This document shows positions 39,344 through 47,914 of a DNA stretch of 64,000 nt, piece after piece. Below the pieces are notes generated by a model. That model was not told where the DNA came from and searched no databases. It saw only the letters and a list, made by a program, of their open reading frames with translations. The stretch comes from Phycisphaerales bacterium. GTDB taxonomy: Bacteria; Planctomycetota; Phycisphaerae; Phycisphaerales; SM1A02. Each line of letters opens with the position of its first letter. The first letter of the stretch is position 1. The stretch lies in contig JASMLR010000004.1 in assembly GCA_030748575.1 (NCBI GenBank), positions 62,001 through 126,000 on the forward strand. The letters are read 5' to 3'. Both the position numbers and the translations under genes were made by a program.

Positions 39344-40336
39344 ATGTGTGACGGGCGGGAAGTCAGATTCGTTCGGGTCAGCGGCCCTCCAACCTTCGAC
39401 GGTTTCTCCGGCGAGTTGGGTGGGACGCCCCTGATCATCGGGCGGGGGTCGGAGTCGACCATCCGGCTTGATGATGCCAGTGTCTCTCGAACGCACGCGA
39501 CAATCACTCTGGAAGAAGATGGCGTTCACGTCCGGGATGCCGGCAGCCGCGCGGGAACCTCGGTCAACATGATGCGGCTCGAAGAGGATGAGTCGGTTCG
39601 GCTGTGCGACAGCGACCTGCTGCTGCTCGGCCCGTGGAAGATTCTGGTTCGCCTCCCCGGAGATGTGCCACCACCCTCGACATGCGCAGAACCCGAGACC
39701 GCCGCAGCAACAGGCGAGACGCCGCCGAAGCCCGTGGTCGGGGGCCGCGGCGATCCGCTCTACGCGACGCGGGCGAGCATCTTTCTCAAGTTGAAGGCGG
39801 ATGGCACGCATGACCGTGAACTTGGCTGGTCTGAGTTTGCGGACAAGTACTCGCGTGTGATTGCGGGATTCGCGAGGAATGCGGGGCTGCCTGCTCAGGA
39901 GGCGGACGATGTGCTGCAGGACGTCCTGCTGGGCTTCTTCAGGGTGTCGGATCGGTTTGAGTATGACCCGCAAAAGGGACGGTTCCGTGGGTATCTCAAG
40001 CGGGTGACGCTCAATGCGATTCGCGCTCGTCACCGCAGGAAGCGACCAACGACGGGGTTTGATGACTCGGTGGATCCGCCTGTTGAAAACGATCTCGACG
40101 CCGCGTGGGACCGGCAATGGACTGAGCAGTTGCTGCAGCGCGCCATGGGCGAAGCCAGGAACGAAGTTGAGGACCGCACGTGGCAGGCGTTCGAGCTCTA
40201 CGGTGTGCGAGGCGTACCCGTCGACGCGGTCGCCGAGGAGACCGGGATGACGCCGGCCGCCATTCGCCACGCGAAGATGCGGCTGACGAAGCGTGTTCGA
40301 GAGATCGTCGGCAGACTCCGCGAGTCTGAAGGCTGA
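39344..40336 (+). CDS. FHA domain fused to an ECF-type RNA polymerase sigma factor
   Basis: Residues about 8-100 form an FHA domain with its phosphothreonine-binding signature GRGSESTIRLDDASVSRTHA and the later GSRAGTSVN. After a Pro/Ala linker (105-135), residues 150-330 match ECF sigma: region 2 AQEADDVLQDVLLGFFRVSD-RFEYDPQKGRFRGYLKRVT and region 4 AVAEETGMTPAAIRHAKMRL, a helix-turn-helix. So a phosphothreonine reader is built into a sigma factor. It closely resembles the gene at 43616. It is probably transcribed from its own leaderless promoter. Partners are unknown; no kinase is adjacent here. Confidence 0.88.
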   Translation: MCDGREVRFVRVSGPPTFDGFSGELGGTPLIIGRGSESTIRLDDASVSRTHATITLEEDGVHVRDAGSRAGTSVNMMRLEEDESVRLCDSDLLLLGPWKILVRLPGDVPPPSTCAEPETAAATGETPPKPVVGGRGDPLYATRASIFLKLKADGTHDRELGWSEFADKYSRVIAGFARNAGLPAQEADDVLQDVLLGFFRVSDRFEYDPQKGRFRGYLKRVTLNAIRARHRRKRPTTGFDDSVDPPVENDLDAAWDRQWTEQLLQRAMGEARNEVEDRTWQAFELYGVRGVPVDAVAEETGMTPAAIRHAKMRLTKRVREIVGRLRESEG

Positions 40337-40351
40337 GCCGCCGACTCTGCG

Positions 40352-41248
40352 CTAGGACGCTGCCGATGCTTCCAGTGGTTTCGGCGGGCGGAGTTGGGCG
40401 AACACGATGCCGATGAACATGAGCAGGCAGCCCGACAACTGAAGCGGCGAGAGCGCCTCAGCGAGGAACGCCCAGCCAGCGAGCGCGCCAAACACGGCTT
40501 CCATGGCAAGCAACACCGCGGCATGTGCGGGCGGCGCGTCCTGCTGGGCAATGATCTGAATGAGGAAGGCGGCGCCCACTGCAAGCACGCCGCTGTAGAG
40601 AAACTCTGGCCAGAGGGAGACGATCGCAAGCCAGGATGGCTGCTCCCAGACGAGGGCGGCGCACATCGTCAGGCCGCCGGCGAGGGCCGTCTGGAAGATG
40701 GCGATGCGTACCGGGTCCACTCTCACGGCGAGCCATCCGAGAATGAGAAACTGGCCGGCCCAGGCTGCGGCTCCGGCCAGCACCAGCGCATCGCCCGGGT
40801 TGATTGTCGGTCGCCCCTGCACGCTGAGCAGATACAGACCGCCAGTCGCAACGAGGACCGCGGCCCAGGTTGTCCAGCGAACGAAGTATCCGATGAACAG
40901 ACCAATGAGCGGCACAAAGACCACATAGAGACCCGTGATGAAGCCGGCGATGCCAGCCGTGGTGTAGACCAGCCCCGCCTGCTGAAGGACCGCGCCTGCG
41001 GTCATCGCCAGGCCAGCGCCGACGAGGCCGAGAAGCAGGTGCGCCCTCCGTACTGGCCTGGGGTTTCGAGGCGCGAGCCGCCGGGCCAGCGGAAGCAGTG
41101 GCAGCATTGAGATCATGCCGATGAGCAGGCGAACGCCAGTGAATGTGATCGGCCCCACGGCCTCCATCGCCGTTCGTTGAATGACGAAGCCGGCGCCCCA
41201 GATGATCGCGACCAGCATGAGCAGGGCATCGGCGCGGAGCACTCGCAT
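40352..41248 (-). CDS. EamA/DMT-superfamily transporter
   Basis: Ten membrane helices in two five-helix EamA repeats (ADALLMLVAIIWGAGFVIQR in repeat one; FLIQIIAQQDAPPAHAAVLL then FGALAGWAFLAEALSP in repeat two), as in RhaT/YdcZ-like metabolite exporters. Length 298 aa. The ATG at 41248 follows a minus-strand TACGCT by 8 nt; the frame runs further upstream but only as antisense to the TauE gene. Substrate unknown. Confidence 0.88.
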   Translation of the reverse strand: MRVLRADALLMLVAIIWGAGFVIQRTAMEAVGPITFTGVRLLIGMISMLPLLPLARRLAPRNPRPVRRAHLLLGLVGAGLAMTAGAVLQQAGLVYTTAGIAGFITGLYVVFVPLIGLFIGYFVRWTTWAAVLVATGGLYLLSVQGRPTINPGDALVLAGAAAWAGQFLILGWLAVRVDPVRIAIFQTALAGGLTMCAALVWEQPSWLAIVSLWPEFLYSGVLAVGAAFLIQIIAQQDAPPAHAAVLLAMEAVFGALAGWAFLAEALSPLQLSGCLLMFIGIVFAQLRPPKPLEASAAS

Positions 41249-41256
41249 GGGGCGGC

Positions 41257-41310
41257 AGCGTACTGCACGGGGTCCGCTTCGGCGCGTGCCATGTCGAGAC
41301 CACGTACCCT
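41257..41310. promoter_or_regulatory. Divergent -10 boxes of the EamA and TauE genes
   Basis: Minus-strand TACGCT (41262-41257) is 8 nt from the EamA ATG; plus-strand TACCCT (41305-41310) is 9 nt from the TauE ATG. Neither gene has a Shine-Dalgarno. Confidence 0.4.
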
Positions 41311-41319
41311 TTCGGCCCG

Positions 41320-42144
41320 ATGCCCGTACTCGAACTCGCCTCCATCTCACTCCCCGCGTGGGAGATTGCCGTCCTGATCGGGATCGGTCTCGTGGCTGGC
41401 TCGCTCGGCGGGCTCCTGGGCATCGGAGGCGGGATTGTGATGATCCCGGCGATCTCGTTTCTGCTGCACCGAGACATTCACCTGGCGCAGGCCGCCTCGA
41501 TGAACGTGATTTTCTTTGTGGCGGCTCCGGCGGCGATCCGGCACTGGAGAGAGGGCGGCGTCCGACGTGAGGTCGTGGTGCGACTGCTCCCCTTCGCGAT
41601 GGTCGCCGTGGTGATTGGTGTGACGGCAAGCATCTGGATCCCCAAAGAAGAGTTGTCACTCATCTTCGGGCTGTTCCTCATCTATGTGTTCTATGAGAAT
41701 CTCAGAAGGCTGATCGGCTTCGGGGCGGCTGTGGGCGAGTCCGCGGCCAGACCAAAAGTGACCTGGCCGCGTGGTGGCTTTGTTGGGTCGGTGGCGGGTT
41801 TCGGCGCGGGACTCCTGGGTATCGGTGGGGGCCTCATCACGGTTCCGGTGACACAACTTGTCTGCCGGTGTCCGCTGCGGGAGTGCATCGCGTGTTCATC
41901 GGCGGTGATGTGCCTGACTTCGGTCGTTGGGGCGATCTACAAGGATGTCACGCTGGCGGATGTGCCGGGGATTGGGGACGACGTGTACTGGTACACGCCG
42001 CTGGGCATTTCCGTCTGGCTTATTCCAACATGTCTGGTCGGAAGCTGGTTCGGCGCCAAGGCCACCCACGTCCTTCCGATCGGGGTCGTCCGCGGCGTCT
42101 TTCTGGTGATCGTCGCGTTGTCCGCGCTCAAGATGTTGATGTGA
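41320..42144 (+). CDS. TauE/SafE-family membrane exporter
   Basis: Eight hydrophobic segments with the two family signatures GSLGGLLGIGGGIVMIPAI and GFGAGLLGIGGGLITVPVTQ, one per half. Members export sulfite, sulfoacetate or related small anions (family knowledge). Length 274 aa. Convergent with the EEP gene, 4 bp apart. Confidence 0.9.
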   Translation: MPVLELASISLPAWEIAVLIGIGLVAGSLGGLLGIGGGIVMIPAISFLLHRDIHLAQAASMNVIFFVAAPAAIRHWREGGVRREVVVRLLPFAMVAVVIGVTASIWIPKEELSLIFGLFLIYVFYENLRRLIGFGAAVGESAARPKVTWPRGGFVGSVAGFGAGLLGIGGGLITVPVTQLVCRCPLRECIACSSAVMCLTSVVGAIYKDVTLADVPGIGDDVYWYTPLGISVWLIPTCLVGSWFGAKATHVLPIGVVRGVFLVIVALSALKMLM

Positions 42145-43615: not shown

Positions 43616-44566
43616 ATGACGGGGAATCAGAGCGGCGACATTGGCGGTCCGGTGCGGCTGCAAGTCGGGCGGGGGCCTGAGCATGACGGAGCGGTGGCTC
43701 AGAACTTCGTGCTCCCGGACGTCGGAGGGGTGATCGGCCGCGGGGACGACGTTGACGTGACGCTTTCAGACCCACGCGTGTCTCGGCGGCACTGTCGGAT
43801 CGGTGAGCACGGCGAGGGTTGGTGGGTTGAAGATCTGGGAAGCCGAAGCGGAACCTGGGTCGACAGCGTGGTCCTCAGCGAGGGCGAGCGGGCGCCGCTC
43901 CAACTCGGCTCGCTGCTGGAAGTGGGCCCCTGGACCTTCGTTGTGCGGGGGATCGCCGCTGCGGCGGTGGATGCGGACAGCGACGTGCTGGTGTCACCGG
44001 AGACCGGCGAAATGCTCCTGCGGGACATTCACGACAGCAGTACTAGCGTTCGCAACGTTGCGTGGGTCGCGTTCGACACGCGGTACGGTGGAGTCATCCG
44101 CGGCTATGCGCGGCGGTTCGGCGTCCGCGGACAGGAAGAGGACGACATCGTGCAGGAGGTGTACCTCGGCCTGCACAACCTCCGGGACGGCGTGCAATAC
44201 AACCGGGCCACCGGGCGCTTTCGAAACTACCTCATGGTGGCAACCCGAAACGCGGTTCGAACGCGGCTGCGCAAGTCGGCCGTGGCCGTCGTTGAGGACA
44301 TTGATGCCCTGGCGAATCCCGCTCAGGATGCCCTGTGGGACCACCAGTGGGCTGAGTCGATGTTGCAGCGGGCGCTGGCAGACCTTCAGCGTTCGATGAC
44401 GCCTGCCCACTACGATGCGTTTGAGCGTTATGGCCGCCGCGGAGAACCTGCAGCGGCCGTGGCGGAGTGCCTGGGAATGACCCCGGAGAATGTCCGCATG
44501 ATCAAGCATCGCAGCATTCGCATGCTTCAGAAGATCGTCGCGTCCTACGACATTCCCGGGCACTGA
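43616..44566 (+). CDS. FHA domain fused to an ECF-type sigma factor, next to a Ser/Thr kinase
   Basis: An FHA domain spans about residues 20-110 (VIGRGDDVDVTLSDPRVSRR-HCRIGEHGEGWWVEDLGSRS), with the arginine and SRRH positions that bind phosphothreonine. An ECF sigma part follows at about 135-316: region 2 GQEEDDIVQEVYLGLHNLRD and TGRFRNYLMVATRNAVRTRL, region 4 AVAECLGMTPENVRMIKHRS. The layout is the same as the protein at 39344. ATG at 43616 is preferred over 43604 because the upstream TATGGT covers the latter. The kinase gene begins 30 bp after its stop, which suggests the kinase and this sigma factor work as a pair (inference). Length 316 aa. Confidence 0.88.
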   Translation: MTGNQSGDIGGPVRLQVGRGPEHDGAVAQNFVLPDVGGVIGRGDDVDVTLSDPRVSRRHCRIGEHGEGWWVEDLGSRSGTWVDSVVLSEGERAPLQLGSLLEVGPWTFVVRGIAAAAVDADSDVLVSPETGEMLLRDIHDSSTSVRNVAWVAFDTRYGGVIRGYARRFGVRGQEEDDIVQEVYLGLHNLRDGVQYNRATGRFRNYLMVATRNAVRTRLRKSAVAVVEDIDALANPAQDALWDHQWAESMLQRALADLQRSMTPAHYDAFERYGRRGEPAAAVAECLGMTPENVRMIKHRSIRMLQKIVASYDIPGH

Positions 44567-44582
44567 CGCAGTGCCGCACGGA

Positions 44583-44588
44583 TATGAT
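44583..44588 (+). promoter_or_regulatory. TATGAT -10 box of the kinase gene
   Basis: The hexamer lies in the 30-bp spacer after the FHA-sigma gene, exactly 8 nt before the GTG start of the kinase. The same TATGAT-N8-start spacing is used by the FHA-sigma gene at 39344. Confidence 0.5.
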
Positions 44589-44596
44589 CGATCGCC

Positions 44597-47500
44597 GTGA
44601 CGGATCCTCCCGGGAAATCTGGCGCAGAAGAGACGCAGGACATGCCGCCGCGCAAGCCGGACGGGCCATCAACCTTTGGTGAGCGTTTGTCAACACTGCC
44701 GCCGTCCATCGGGCGGTACCGGCTGGTCGACACGATTGGCTGGGGCGGAATGGGCGTGGTGTATCGGGCGGAGCAGGATCGACCCCAGCGTACCGTCGCC
44801 ATCAAGGTTCTTCGCCACGAGTGCGCCGATCCCAAACGCGTGCAGCGGCTCGAGCAGGAGGCCGAGTTGCTGGGGAGACTCCACCATCCCTCCATTGCGC
44901 AGGTGTATGACGCGGGATCGTGGGACGCCGGGCTCGGAGCGCAGCCCTATCTGGTGATGGAGTACATCGATGGCGTGCCGCTCATGGAGTATGTGCGGTC
45001 CGCACGACTCTCCCGAGCGGACCGGATCGACCTCATGATCGGCATCTGTGACGCGGTGCAGCATGCGCATGATCGCGGTGTCATCCACCGTGATCTCAAG
45101 CCCAGCAACATCCTCGTGGACGCAGATGGGCACCCGCGCATCGTTGACTTCGGGGTTGCTGCGTTGCTCGACCCCGCAGAAGGCGTCCGGCAGACCATGA
45201 CGGAGTCAGGGGCCATCATCGGGACCACTGCCTACATGAGCCCCGAGCAGGCTGCGGGAGATGCGTCACTCGGCGGCCCGGCCGTCGATGTCTATGCGCT
45301 GGGCGTGGTGACGTACGAAGCACTGGCGGGCAGGCTCCCGATTGAACTGGGCGGCCTCTCGGTTGCCGAGGCCATCCATGCGATCACGGAGACCCAGCCG
45401 CGTCCGATCGGGGGCATCGACCCGTCGCTCGCGGGTGACATCGAGGTGGTCCTTGGGAAAGCCCTGGAGAAGGACCCGGGCAGACGCTACCGGCGGCCCA
45501 AGGATCTGGCCGATGATCTCCGACGCATTCTGTCGCACGAACCGATTCATGCCCGCCCTCCCACGCTTGCGTATCGCACGGCCCGATTCGTTCGGCGACA
45601 CCGCGCGGCGGTGGCATTCACCGCTGCCATCGTGTGCATTCTGATTGCGGCAACGGTGGTGTCGACGTGGCAGGCGTATGCCGCCCTTCGAGCTGAGGCG
45701 GATTCCAATCGCCGGCTCGGCCAGCTGCGTTCGTTGGCGACCTCCTTGATTGTGGACATGGACGATCGGTTGGGTGACGTGGAGGGGGCGACGGCGGTGC
45801 ACGCCTTCACGGTCAAGTCAGGCCTCGCGTGCCTCGAGGAAATCGCAGCCCGCCGCCGCGATGACCCGATGCTGCGAACCGAGGTTGCGCACGCCTACGG
45901 CCGCATCGCTGAGCTCCAGGGGGATCCGCGGCGAAGCAATCTGGGGCAGGTTGATGACGCGATTGCATCGTGTGACCGTGGAATCAACCTGCTTGATGTC
46001 GGATTGGAATCCCAGCGAACAGAGTTGGCTTCGCTGCTTGCGCTGCGTGGCACGCTGCATGTAGCACGCGGTGACCTCATCGCGGCGGAGCGAGATCTGG
46101 ACCTCGCCCAGATGGCGGTACTGGAGGGCGATGCGACAGGTCGGCTCCGCATCCTGGCGCTTCAGGCGGAGGTGCAGACGGCAGCAGGCTCGCTGGAGCA
46201 GGCCGTTCAGACGTGGCAGGCGGCCTCACAGGCTGCGGCAGCGTCTGCGGGCGAGGCAACGCCTGACCTGGCGAGGATGCGTGTTGAGCTGGCCTCGCAT
46301 CTCATTCGCACCGGCATGATCAGTGAGGGGCTGCGGCAGGCTGAACGCGCCGCGGCCGAGTGGACGCAGTTGGGGACGGACGAACGATGGCGGCAGCAGG
46401 CCCGCGGGTATGGTCGCCGGCTGGATGGCATGCGTGGGCGAGCGCTGCAAACGCTCGGTCGTTCGGCGGAAGCCCTTCCGCTGTTCGAGCGGCGCGTTCA
46501 CAGCGCTCGAGGGCGGGTGTGGAACGATCCCTCGGACGTTCGGGCGCATGTTGATCTTGGGGACGCGCTCATGAATCAGGCAGAGGCCATGTCTGCCATT
46601 GATGGCCGTCTGGATGCGGCGGTTCCGGTGCTTGAAGAAGCCATCGCGCATCTCGAACCGCACGCCGATGCGACCGACCTGGTCCACCTGCATTCGGCGC
46701 TGGCCCGGGCGAGAGGCCGGCTGGCGGAAGTGCACAGGATGAACGGTGAGTACGAGCAGGCCCTGCCGCTGCTGGAACGCACCGAAGAGGCGCTGCGGGT
46801 GGCGATCCAGGACACCGCGGATCCATCGCTCGAGTACGACCTGGCTGACATTCAGTTGGTGCGGGCCGAGTTGATGCGGCACCAGCGAGCTGACCGGCCC
46901 GCAGCACTGACGATGGCCGAAGCGGCGACTCGAGTTCTTGACGACGCATGGCGAGCCAGCCCATTGAATGCCCACCTTGGCCGCCGGTCGGTTGCAGGGT
47001 GGCTTGCAGTCCTGAGGCTTCGGGCGGCGGTCGGAGCGCCGGACGCCGCTGCTGCCGGAGAAGCGGCGGTGGGGATCGCCGCGGCGCTGGTCGACCGAGA
47101 TCCGGCGAACCTCATGTCGAGACGTTCGGCGGCCATGGCACATCGGTTTCTCGGCACGGCGTACGCCTTCGACAATCAGGTTGAGCGGGGTCTTGAGGAA
47201 CTCGATCGCGCGACGGACATGTTCATCGCCATTCTCGAAGTGGATCCGATGAGCGACCAATTGCAGCGAAGCCTCTCCGCGACGCACTACCGACGGGGGC
47301 TGGTGCTTCGCGGGGCCGAGCGATGGGCAGAGGCCCGGGACGCCTTTCAGGCGGCAGTTGATATTGACCTTGTCCGCCTCGCGGAGGATCCCGGCAGCCA
47401 CTCGGCGGTCGCGGATGTGGTCTCTGTACTCGACAAGGTGGTGGCTTGCTCGGTGGAACTGGGCGGCGCTGCGGAAGCTGTGCCGACGGCGGAGCGATCG

Positions 47501-47914
47501 GTGGAACTGGCCAAAGCGTCGCTGGCCCGCTCACCTCTGGCCACGGAACGGCAGCGGCTGGTGGCGCAGACGACCATGCGATTGCTGAACTCGTGCCGCC
47601 TTGCCGGCGACATGGAGCGAGCCAACACGCTGTACCTTGAACTCGATGCGGTCATGCCAGGCTGGATCGCGGCGGCGCCGGACAACCTGCCGCTGCGGCA
47701 ACTGCGGGCGGCGATGTGCATCCAGTTGGGGCACTTGCTGATCGCTGACCCGACGCCTGGCGACCAGGCGCGGGTCGCTGAGGCTCTGGACGAGGCTGAG
47801 GGCCTGCTGCGTCATCTCCTTGAGGTGGGGGCGGGCGGGCCCCGCGAGGAGGCCGGCCTGAAGGCCATTCAGGACATGCGGGTTCAGGCCGCGGAGGCCT
47901 TTTCCGGGCTGTAG
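44597..47914 (+). CDS. Membrane Ser/Thr protein kinase with long C-terminal TPR-like region
   Basis: The kinase domain spans about residues 40-310: glycine loop TIGWGGMGVVYRA, lysine in VAIKVL, catalytic VIHRDLKPSNILV, metal-binding VDFGVA and GTTAYMSPEQ, so it should be active. One membrane helix (about 335-355, AVAFTAAIVCILIAATVVST) separates it from some 740 residues of Ala/Leu-rich alpha-helical repeats with TPR character (ALPLFERRVHSARGRVW; RGLEELDRATDMFIAILEVD). The repeats would lie outside the cytoplasm and could sense or scaffold. The start is GTG. Length 1105 aa, large but typical of planctomycete kinases. Its position after the FHA-sigma gene suggests a phosphothreonine relay (inference). 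Confidence 0.9.
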   Translation: MTDPPGKSGAEETQDMPPRKPDGPSTFGERLSTLPPSIGRYRLVDTIGWGGMGVVYRAEQDRPQRTVAIKVLRHECADPKRVQRLEQEAELLGRLHHPSIAQVYDAGSWDAGLGAQPYLVMEYIDGVPLMEYVRSARLSRADRIDLMIGICDAVQHAHDRGVIHRDLKPSNILVDADGHPRIVDFGVAALLDPAEGVRQTMTESGAIIGTTAYMSPEQAAGDASLGGPAVDVYALGVVTYEALAGRLPIELGGLSVAEAIHAITETQPRPIGGIDPSLAGDIEVVLGKALEKDPGRRYRRPKDLADDLRRILSHEPIHARPPTLAYRTARFVRRHRAAVAFTAAIVCILIAATVVSTWQAYAALRAEADSNRRLGQLRSLATSLIVDMDDRLGDVEGATAVHAFTVKSGLACLEEIAARRRDDPMLRTEVAHAYGRIAELQGDPRRSNLGQVDDAIASCDRGINLLDVGLESQRTELASLLALRGTLHVARGDLIAAERDLDLAQMAVLEGDATGRLRILALQAEVQTAAGSLEQAVQTWQAASQAAAASAGEATPDLARMRVELASHLIRTGMISEGLRQAERAAAEWTQLGTDERWRQQARGYGRRLDGMRGRALQTLGRSAEALPLFERRVHSARGRVWNDPSDVRAHVDLGDALMNQAEAMSAIDGRLDAAVPVLEEAIAHLEPHADATDLVHLHSALARARGRLAEVHRMNGEYEQALPLLERTEEALRVAIQDTADPSLEYDLADIQLVRAELMRHQRADRPAALTMAEAATRVLDDAWRASPLNAHLGRRSVAGWLAVLRLRAAVGAPDAAAAGEAAVGIAAALVDRDPANLMSRRSAAMAHRFLGTAYAFDNQVERGLEELDRATDMFIAILEVDPMSDQLQRSLSATHYRRGLVLRGAERWAEARDAFQAAVDIDLVRLAEDPGSHSAVADVVSVLDKVVACSVELGGAAEAVPTAERSVELAKASLARSPLATERQRLVAQTTMRLLNSCRLAGDMERANTLYLELDAVMPGWIAAAPDNLPLRQLRAAMCIQLGHLLIADPTPGDQARVAEALDEAEGLLRHLLEVGAGGPREEAGLKAIQDMRVQAAEAFSGL

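Follow-up and report, generated by a model that had tools for sequence, protein, structure and literature searches.

A candidate phosphothreonine-dependent signalling pair formed by an FHA-fused ECF sigma factor and a neighbouring membrane Ser/Thr kinase in a Phycisphaerales bacterium

Introduction

The closest described counterpart of the system considered here is the EmbR-PknH pair of mycobacteria, in which an FHA domain is fused to a transcription factor that is phosphorylated by a Hanks-type kinase. The EmbR and PknH genes are neighbours, and the DNA-binding part of EmbR is of another family and is not a sigma factor. Here we describe a gene for an extracytoplasmic function (ECF) sigma factor with an N-terminal FHA domain (FHA-ECF A) that is followed by the gene of a membrane Ser/Thr kinase, the two together being called pair A, in a 64,000-nucleotide stretch of DNA from a Phycisphaerales bacterium (the window; assembly GCA_030748575.1, contig JASMLR010000004.1, positions 62,001 to 126,000 of the forward strand). 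The FHA domain of EmbR is a close structural match to that of the window protein (Z 16), but it is C-terminal (matched at 283-380), that of the window protein being N-terminal.

A different resemblance is to group ECF43 (EcfP-PknT and EcfK-PknS), in which an ECF sigma factor is likewise encoded beside a Hanks kinase. These sigma factors typically lack the acidic residues of sigma region 2.2 (sigma2.2) and are phosphorylated there on Thr for activation (excerpts of PMC13147305, PMC8103513 and PMC8999054). Membership of ECF43 was considered for the FHA-ECFs and rejected, as they do not have an uncharged sigma2.2 with a phosphorylatable Thr and carry a fused FHA domain. Other planctomycete ECF groups thought to work with Ser/Thr kinases are ECF59, ECF61, ECF62 and ECF217, which are tabulated as phosphorylation-controlled in the excerpted part of PMC8999054; the FHA-less relatives of the window sigma factor may belong to groups of this kind. 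The planctomycete ECFs of old groups ECF87-89 also have an extension before sigma2, of a kind that is not named in the excerpts of PMC8103513, according to which none of their members had been studied experimentally as of 2021. Word counts of the reviews PMC8103513 and PMC8999054 gave zero mentions of FHA, and no description of an FHA-ECF fusion was found in the literature searched, which did not cover the main ECF classification papers. Lastly, GarA and OdhI are FHA proteins controlled by mycobacterial and corynebacterial kinases and are among the closest structures to the window FHA domain, the PknB-GarA complex included, but they regulate metabolic enzymes and not transcription factors.

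Results

An ECF sigma factor with an FHA domain is encoded 30 bp upstream of a membrane kinase

An earlier note on this DNA had proposed that one 316-aa protein combines an FHA domain with an ECF sigma factor and is followed 30 bp later by a membrane Ser/Thr kinase, and this was borne out by Pfam, TIGR02937 and hydropathy. The gene for FHA-ECF A (43616..44566; all features given here are on the + strand unless stated) was delimited from the open reading frame and domain scans, with in-frame alternative starts at ATG 43604 and GTG 43433. Its product matches the Pfam families FHA at residues 39-104 (43730..43927; E 2.8e-17) and Sigma70_r2 at 155-221 (44078..44278; E 2.3e-9), both over the cut-off, and Sigma70_r4 at 272-306 (44429..44533) with an E value of 0.0092, which is below it; region 4 is nevertheless supported by NCBIfam TIGR02937, over its cut-off across 155-306, by predicted helices and by the solved ECF chains SigE, SigL and RpoE, which a profile of the family matched from sigma2 to sigma4. 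No match to sigma3 was found in the Pfam and NCBIfam scans, so that FHA-ECF A has the sigma2 and sigma4 regions only, as an ECF sigma factor does, and the same scans gave no EmbR-type DNA-binding or bacterial activator domain. An AlphaFold2 model of the protein had a mean pLDDT (predicted local distance difference test) of 83.8 and a pTM (predicted template modelling score) of 0.72, and the best fold matches of its FHA part included DgcB with a phosphopeptide, which ranked top, GarA, OdhI and EmbR; these library matches all fall in the FHA part, and fold comparison hardly probed the sigma part.

The kinase gene (44597..47914, from the open reading frame, Pfam and hydropathy) begins with GTG and has ATG 44642 as an alternative start; for both genes the start codon is uncertain. 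The 1105-aa product has a Pkinase match at residues 41-250 (E 2.5e-43) within a kinase domain that extends over 41-312 (44717..45532) and contains an activation-loop Thr pair (TMT). The description of this kinase as active-looking with a long repeat region also held, as the VAIK Lys, HRD, DFG and SPE motifs are all present and scattered TPR matches occur across the C-terminal ~750 residues (45662..47911). These follow a single transmembrane segment (residues 337-355; 45605..45661, from hydropathy) and, given that there is only one such segment, are presumed to lie outside the cytoplasm.

FHA-ECF genes are associated with kinase genes beyond chance

Fusions of this type were collected with a family-wide profile search (E 1e-45), which matched 70 of 181 genomes; of the 80 family matches, the analysis took in the 75 that have FHA and ECF in a single frame, representing 66 genomes and 15 genera. 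Those left out were G407 and G455 (truncated), G371 and G372 (ECF without FHA) and a sigma factor that failed the FHA profile (L189, from G440:C8). The fusion of a Phycisphaeraceae metagenome-assembled genome (L215), which was found by name, is likewise not among the 75.

With a corrected kinase profile, a kinase gene was found within 250 bp of 29 of the 75 FHA-ECFs, in 5 of the 15 genera. In 16 cases it lies upstream on the same strand (14 of them in one genus, g33), in eight it is divergent (genus g37) and in five it lies downstream, as in the window (two in the window's own genus and three in g37). The layout known from EmbR, with an FHA-fused transcription factor and an adjacent kinase gene, occurs in the window and at 28 other loci, with a sigma factor as the transcription factor. 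A further 14 FHA-ECFs have a kinase at 1.26-3.36 kb, which in nine is a short kinase from a different kinase family ~1.3-1.4 kb upstream (g36/g236). The chance of kinase adjacency is expected to be ~0.8% per gene, from nine kinase matches in this genome and an assumed ~1 kb per gene. Hence FHA-ECFs lie near kinase genes more often than chance would predict, and do so in several gene orders, and the absence of such co-occurrence, which had been named as an outcome that would refute the proposal, was not what was seen.

Pair A itself was found in two of the nine genomes of its genus, several of which are incomplete, and was therefore rejected as a genus-wide feature. In both (the window's genome, G000, and G002) it sits between an endo/exonuclease-phosphatase gene and a subtilase gene, and G002 retains its order and site at ~50% identity; G003 and G007 have neither a further FHA-ECF nor a kinase between paralogue B, the second FHA-ECF gene of the window, and the Na/H exchanger. 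In the sigma tree, which held 73 of the 75 fusions (two had a short ECF match) and 35 FHA-less rows, the downstream-class sigmas of g37 are the sister group of the pair-A sigma (99/96), and in the kinase tree, for which 49 of 66 rows were used and the number per class and genus was capped at four, the pair-A and g37 downstream kinases group together (92/81). The agreement of the two groupings suggests that sigma factor and kinase of the window type have been co-inherited.

Two classes of linked kinases carry a candidate FHA ligand in their N-terminal tails

In the five downstream-class kinases the tail that precedes the kinase domain contains EETQDM (window), DETLGM, DETQSM, DDTYSM or EQTRKM. 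When the five tails are aligned on an xDGP that they share, no gaps are needed and each has T at −8 and M at −5; the Thr is encoded by the synonymous codons ACG, ACA or ACC. The window motif (44627..44644), with Thr13 as the potential phosphosite, requires the GTG start for its translation, and in two of the five (L185 and L187) an ATG start upstream of the motif overlaps the sigma stop codon. The nine g37 kinases in divergent orientation (eight adjacent and one at 1.5 kb) have the related AET[IV]G[ML]. FHA domains often select the residue at +3, and a motif of the form [DE].?Txx[ML] is a plausible phosphothreonine ligand.

This pattern occurs in 5/5 downstream and 9/9 g37 divergent tails, with about 0.4 and 0.9 expected from shuffled tails, and in 0/15 upstream-class tails (shuffles ~1.7). 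Beside FHA-less ECFs it was present in three of 16 (shuffles ~1.1), and among control kinases in 3/40 from genomes with an FHA-ECF (~4.5) and 1/19 from genomes without (~2.0). The controls comprised 40 kinases from 17 FHA-ECF genomes and 20 from seven genomes without, 19 of them scored, and are mostly the best matches to the window kinase among the matches listed in a 30-genome search; two of the 19 (L302 and L305) do adjoin an FHA-less ECF, L302 being the same gene as L061. Tails shorter than 15 residues were not scored (one in g33, seven in g36/g236 and one control).

The activation-loop Thr pair offered another potential docking site and is present in the downstream class, including the window kinase, and in the divergent class. 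It was rejected as a general rule, as the g33 kinases lack it.

A separate tail pattern, T[VIL][VIML][DG], which was chosen post hoc, was found in 9/40 controls of FHA-ECF genomes vs 0/19 of the others; the plain form TxxD, at 12/40 vs 4/19, separates these groups poorly. Six kinases of genomes with an orphan FHA-ECF (L253, L256, L262, L268, L273 and L281) have [DE]xT[VI][VIM]D tails and are possible partners in trans.

The phosphothreonine-contact core and the sigma2.2 acids are conserved

Residues G41, R42, S56, R57, H59, D73, S76 and G79 of the FHA domain are kept in 75/75 FHA-ECFs, although these were chosen by an FHA profile, so that 'invariant' leaves out the decayed L189. The core expected to contact phosphothreonine (GR and SxxH) is thus present in all 75, and the window protein also matches the FHA fold. 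In sigma region 2 the acidic 2.2 motif of the window protein (E174..D177) is intact; D177 is present in 75/75 fusions and E or D at 174 in 72/75, and in the FHA-less relatives D or E occupies 177 in 35/35 and 174 in 31/35. With these acids intact, the sigma factor should not need a charge-restoring phosphate. Just N-terminal of sigma2 lies Thr130 (44003..44005), a candidate phosphosite or helix cap, which is Thr in 75/75 fusions and in 42/44 FHA-less relatives.

Kinases beside FHA-less sister sigma factors appear to carry anti-sigma-like tails

A branch of the sigma tree (78/95) sets the fusions apart from neighbouring FHA-less ECFs, of which many adjoin kinases, and FHA-ECFs thus look single in origin. 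A kinase is adjacent in 14 of the 16 FHA-less loci fetched (L115-L130), a non-random set taken from the top-scoring matches and G017. A larger set of 35 distinct kinases beside FHA-less ECFs was assembled from the loci at hand; 13 have the element W[FY]xDxxxLLxEL (WF) in the N-terminal tail, possibly a sigma-binding helix (L047, L093-L097, L099, L101, L103, L104, L110, L190 and L191), 11 have HxxxCxxC, resembling a zinc-binding anti-sigma (ZAS) motif, N-terminal to the kinase domain (L051, L052, L055, L056, L059, L061, L100, L105, L225, L227 and L228), and none has both. The WF element was absent from all 35 scorable tails of FHA-ECF-linked kinases and from 59 control tails. HxxxCxxC was not found in any of 43 FHA-ECF-linked kinases, and occurred in two of 60 controls, both of which adjoin an FHA-less ECF. 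Several of the zinc tails also have an N-terminal CP. When a profile of these tails was compared with the PDB, the anti-sigma factor ChrR was the best match (E 0.04), which is suggestive of the HxxxCxxC kinases being anti-sigma/kinase fusions. The g37 divergent kinases, which have an FHA partner and a TxxM/L tail, group as sister (100/98) with the kinase of L120, which has an FHA-less partner and a WF tail; here the tail goes with the partner and not with kinase ancestry.

That no anti-sigma gene adjoins the pair, as stated in the earlier note, stood in so far as none of the five neighbours scanned (endo/exonuclease-phosphatase family, symporter, TauE, subtilase and Na/H exchanger) belongs to an anti-sigma family, a minus-strand transporter-like gene within 40352-41659 being outside the scan. 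In the sister systems, however, the kinases appear to carry anti-sigma-like tail elements, so that the kinase itself may act in place of an anti-sigma factor.

Distribution of the fusion and other features of the window

Among the matches listed (to about E 4e-34) in a class sample of 298 genomes, full-length FHA-ECF matches came from one family of the Phycisphaerae only, and they were again confined to it in a phylum sample of 392 genomes (E 1e-40). The Phycisphaeraceae fusion L215, which keeps GR, SRRH and the Asn, may belong to another family. Record titles of the named members suggest marine and lake metagenomes as their sources.

The paralogue FHA-ECF B (39344..40336, 330 aa; from the open reading frame, Pfam and comparison of the genus), which was absent from the earlier note, begins ~10 bp after a sodium:solute symporter gene. 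It was found in eight of the nine genomes of the genus, where the position beside the symporter is kept and a kinase is lacking. The source genome is a 2.38 Mb assembly, 97% complete, with seven FHA, nine kinase and 17 sigma2 matches. It contains two more ECF-kinase pairs, without FHA and with overlapping genes (L078 5550-8737, contig C11; L079 5985-8674, contig C55).

Discussion

Taken together, the sequence comparisons establish a real pair, in which the FHA domain most likely reads a phosphothreonine on its kinase, the tail being the best candidate for the docking site in the window-type and divergent classes. Tail docking through phosphothreonine within an FHA-ECF/kinase signalling pair is, overall, the best explanation that we can offer, at a probability that we put just short of even. 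The membrane kinase, with its large C-terminal sensor, would autophosphorylate its cytosolic N-terminal tail on the Thr of [DE]xTxx[ML], which is Thr13 in the window kinase. Binding of this phosphothreonine by the FHA domain of the sigma factor would then let the kinase, depending on its activity, either retain the sigma factor or pass it on. At this tail position related kinases have other sigma-binding-like elements, a WF-LLxEL helix or a ZAS-like zinc motif, so that with the FHA fusion a dock that had been constitutive would have come to depend on phosphorylation. What the sequences show is the architecture, the linkage in several genera, the kept FHA core, the intact sigma2.2 acids and a tail motif that follows the type of sigma partner in two kinase classes; we infer that the tail Thr is phosphorylated, that the FHA domain binds that Thr and that tethering is inhibitory. 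If docking does take place, the chances are about even that tethering acts as a conditional anti-sigma mechanism, and docking for an activating phosphorylation is somewhat less probable; tethering is slightly favoured because the sigma factor looks competent alone and because the sister kinases seem to hold their sigma factors by anti-sigma-like tails.

A number of observations weigh against this explanation. No kinase lies within 4 kb of 32 of the 75 FHA-ECFs, paralogue B included (five of the 32 have less than 2 kb of flank on one side, and the paralogue B copies of G000 and G002, counted here, are 4.2 kb from the pair-A kinase); such orphans imply partners in trans. The tail motif was chosen after the tails had been seen, and the 14 kinases that bear it represent two or three lineages and not 14 independent cases. 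It also occurs in 4/35 of the larger set of kinases beside FHA-less ECFs, and the looser Txx[MLIVD] matches controls at 15/40 and 5/19. The Met at +3 is encoded by ATG in all five downstream pairs and is a possible start codon, in which case the window motif would be untranslated. In g33, the 13 kinases with a scorable tail do not have the motif and 14 of 14 aligned kinases do not have the activation-loop Thr pair, so that this genus would have to use another mode of docking, or a route other than this one; in the short g36/g236 kinases there is hardly any tail. The canonical FHA Asn of the SxNGT loop (position 78) is present in one of the 75 and is Ser in the window protein, and one sigma factor of the family (L189 5917-6843, from G440) has lost GR and SRxH with a kinase ~1.1 kb upstream. 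As a separate observation, the genome of L189 also bears an intact FHA-ECF. For the sister systems, 11 of the 35 kinases have neither tail element, Pfam zf-HC2 was below cut-off in two of nine zinc tails (E 2.8e-4 and 3.5e-3) and absent from the other seven, and the zinc-tail profile placed TP2 (0.051) and LUC7 (0.5), which are not anti-sigma factors, ahead of RsiW (0.56). Capture of the kinase by the FHA domain, as originally put forward, is therefore favoured by the gene association, the invariant core and the plausible ligand motif, and is weakened by the orphans; the phrase 'one-protein switch' was too strong. Not every FHA-ECF has a kinase for a neighbour, and a family member has lost the FHA core.

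The same data can be read in other ways. By analogy with EmbR and PknH, the FHA domain might dock the sigma factor on the autophosphorylated kinase, at the tail or the loop, after which the sigma factor would be phosphorylated, for example on Thr130 or in the linker between FHA and sigma, and leave in an active state. EmbR is phosphorylated by PknH through its FHA domain (according to the title of a reference in PMC4238996) and is among the closest FHA structures, and both the activation-loop Thr of the window, downstream and divergent kinases and the conservation of Thr130 would fit such a scheme. However, Thr130 is kept equally in the FHA-less relatives, where it is perhaps a helix cap, with the sigma2.2 acids intact the known reason for a phosphate falls away, and it is the tail and not the activation loop that differs by partner type, which leaves us regarding this activation as unlikely. 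We hold an equally low opinion of the view that FHA-ECFs are general readers of phosphoproteins, responding to other kinases or, as in DgcB, to their own chain, with the adjacent kinase as one input or an inherited neighbour. The orphans, in which the FHA core is still invariant, speak for it, as do the T[VIL][VIML][DG] tails of control kinases in genomes with an orphan FHA-ECF and the crystallisation of DgcB, the top FHA match, with its own phosphorylated N-terminal peptide; moreover, the linkage may be inherited, because the sister FHA-less ECFs already adjoin kinases. Against it stand the kinases that stay close through several rearrangements (downstream, upstream, divergent or one gene away) and the tail motif that marks linked kinases of two classes.

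A mechanism of the ECF43 type, with the kinase phosphorylating sigma2.2 to supply a missing charge as for EcfP and EcfK, would agree with the adjacency of a Hanks kinase (excerpts of PMC13147305 and PMC8103513), but the acids are intact in the fusions and mostly so in their FHA-less relatives. EcfK itself keeps one charge at sigma2.2 (excerpts of PMC13147305), so that intact acids only disfavour this mechanism, and we judge it very improbable. Least probable of all is that the two genes are neighbours by chance and functionally unrelated: the presence of pair A in two of nine genomes, several of them incomplete, and the existence of paralogue B without a neighbouring kinase would allow it, but the conservation of both order and site in G002 at ~50% identity, the recurrence of the downstream arrangement in three genomes of a second genus, for which the sigma and kinase trees agree, and the low expected rate of adjacency all argue against it.

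A broader, tentative proposal, to which we give rather less than an even chance, is that sigma-linked planctomycete kinases are hybrids of kinase and anti-sigma factor, with an exchangeable module before the kinase domain that holds the sigma factor and takes the form of a ZAS-like zinc motif, a WF-LLxEL helix or a phosphothreonine peptide. The FHA-ECF lineage would then have swapped a structural anti-sigma contact for a phospho-switched one, and its kinase would be a conditional anti-sigma factor. This suggests a general rule in which the N-terminal tail of the kinase is a sigma-docking module, and for the FHA-ECFs it leads to a prediction that can be tested cheaply, with one phosphopeptide and one FHA domain. 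If true, ECF sigma factors and Hanks kinases, two of the main kinds of bacterial signalling, would be joined in these bacteria without the charge switch of ECF43, and the FHA-ECFs would illustrate the grafting of a phospho-reader onto the initiation of transcription.

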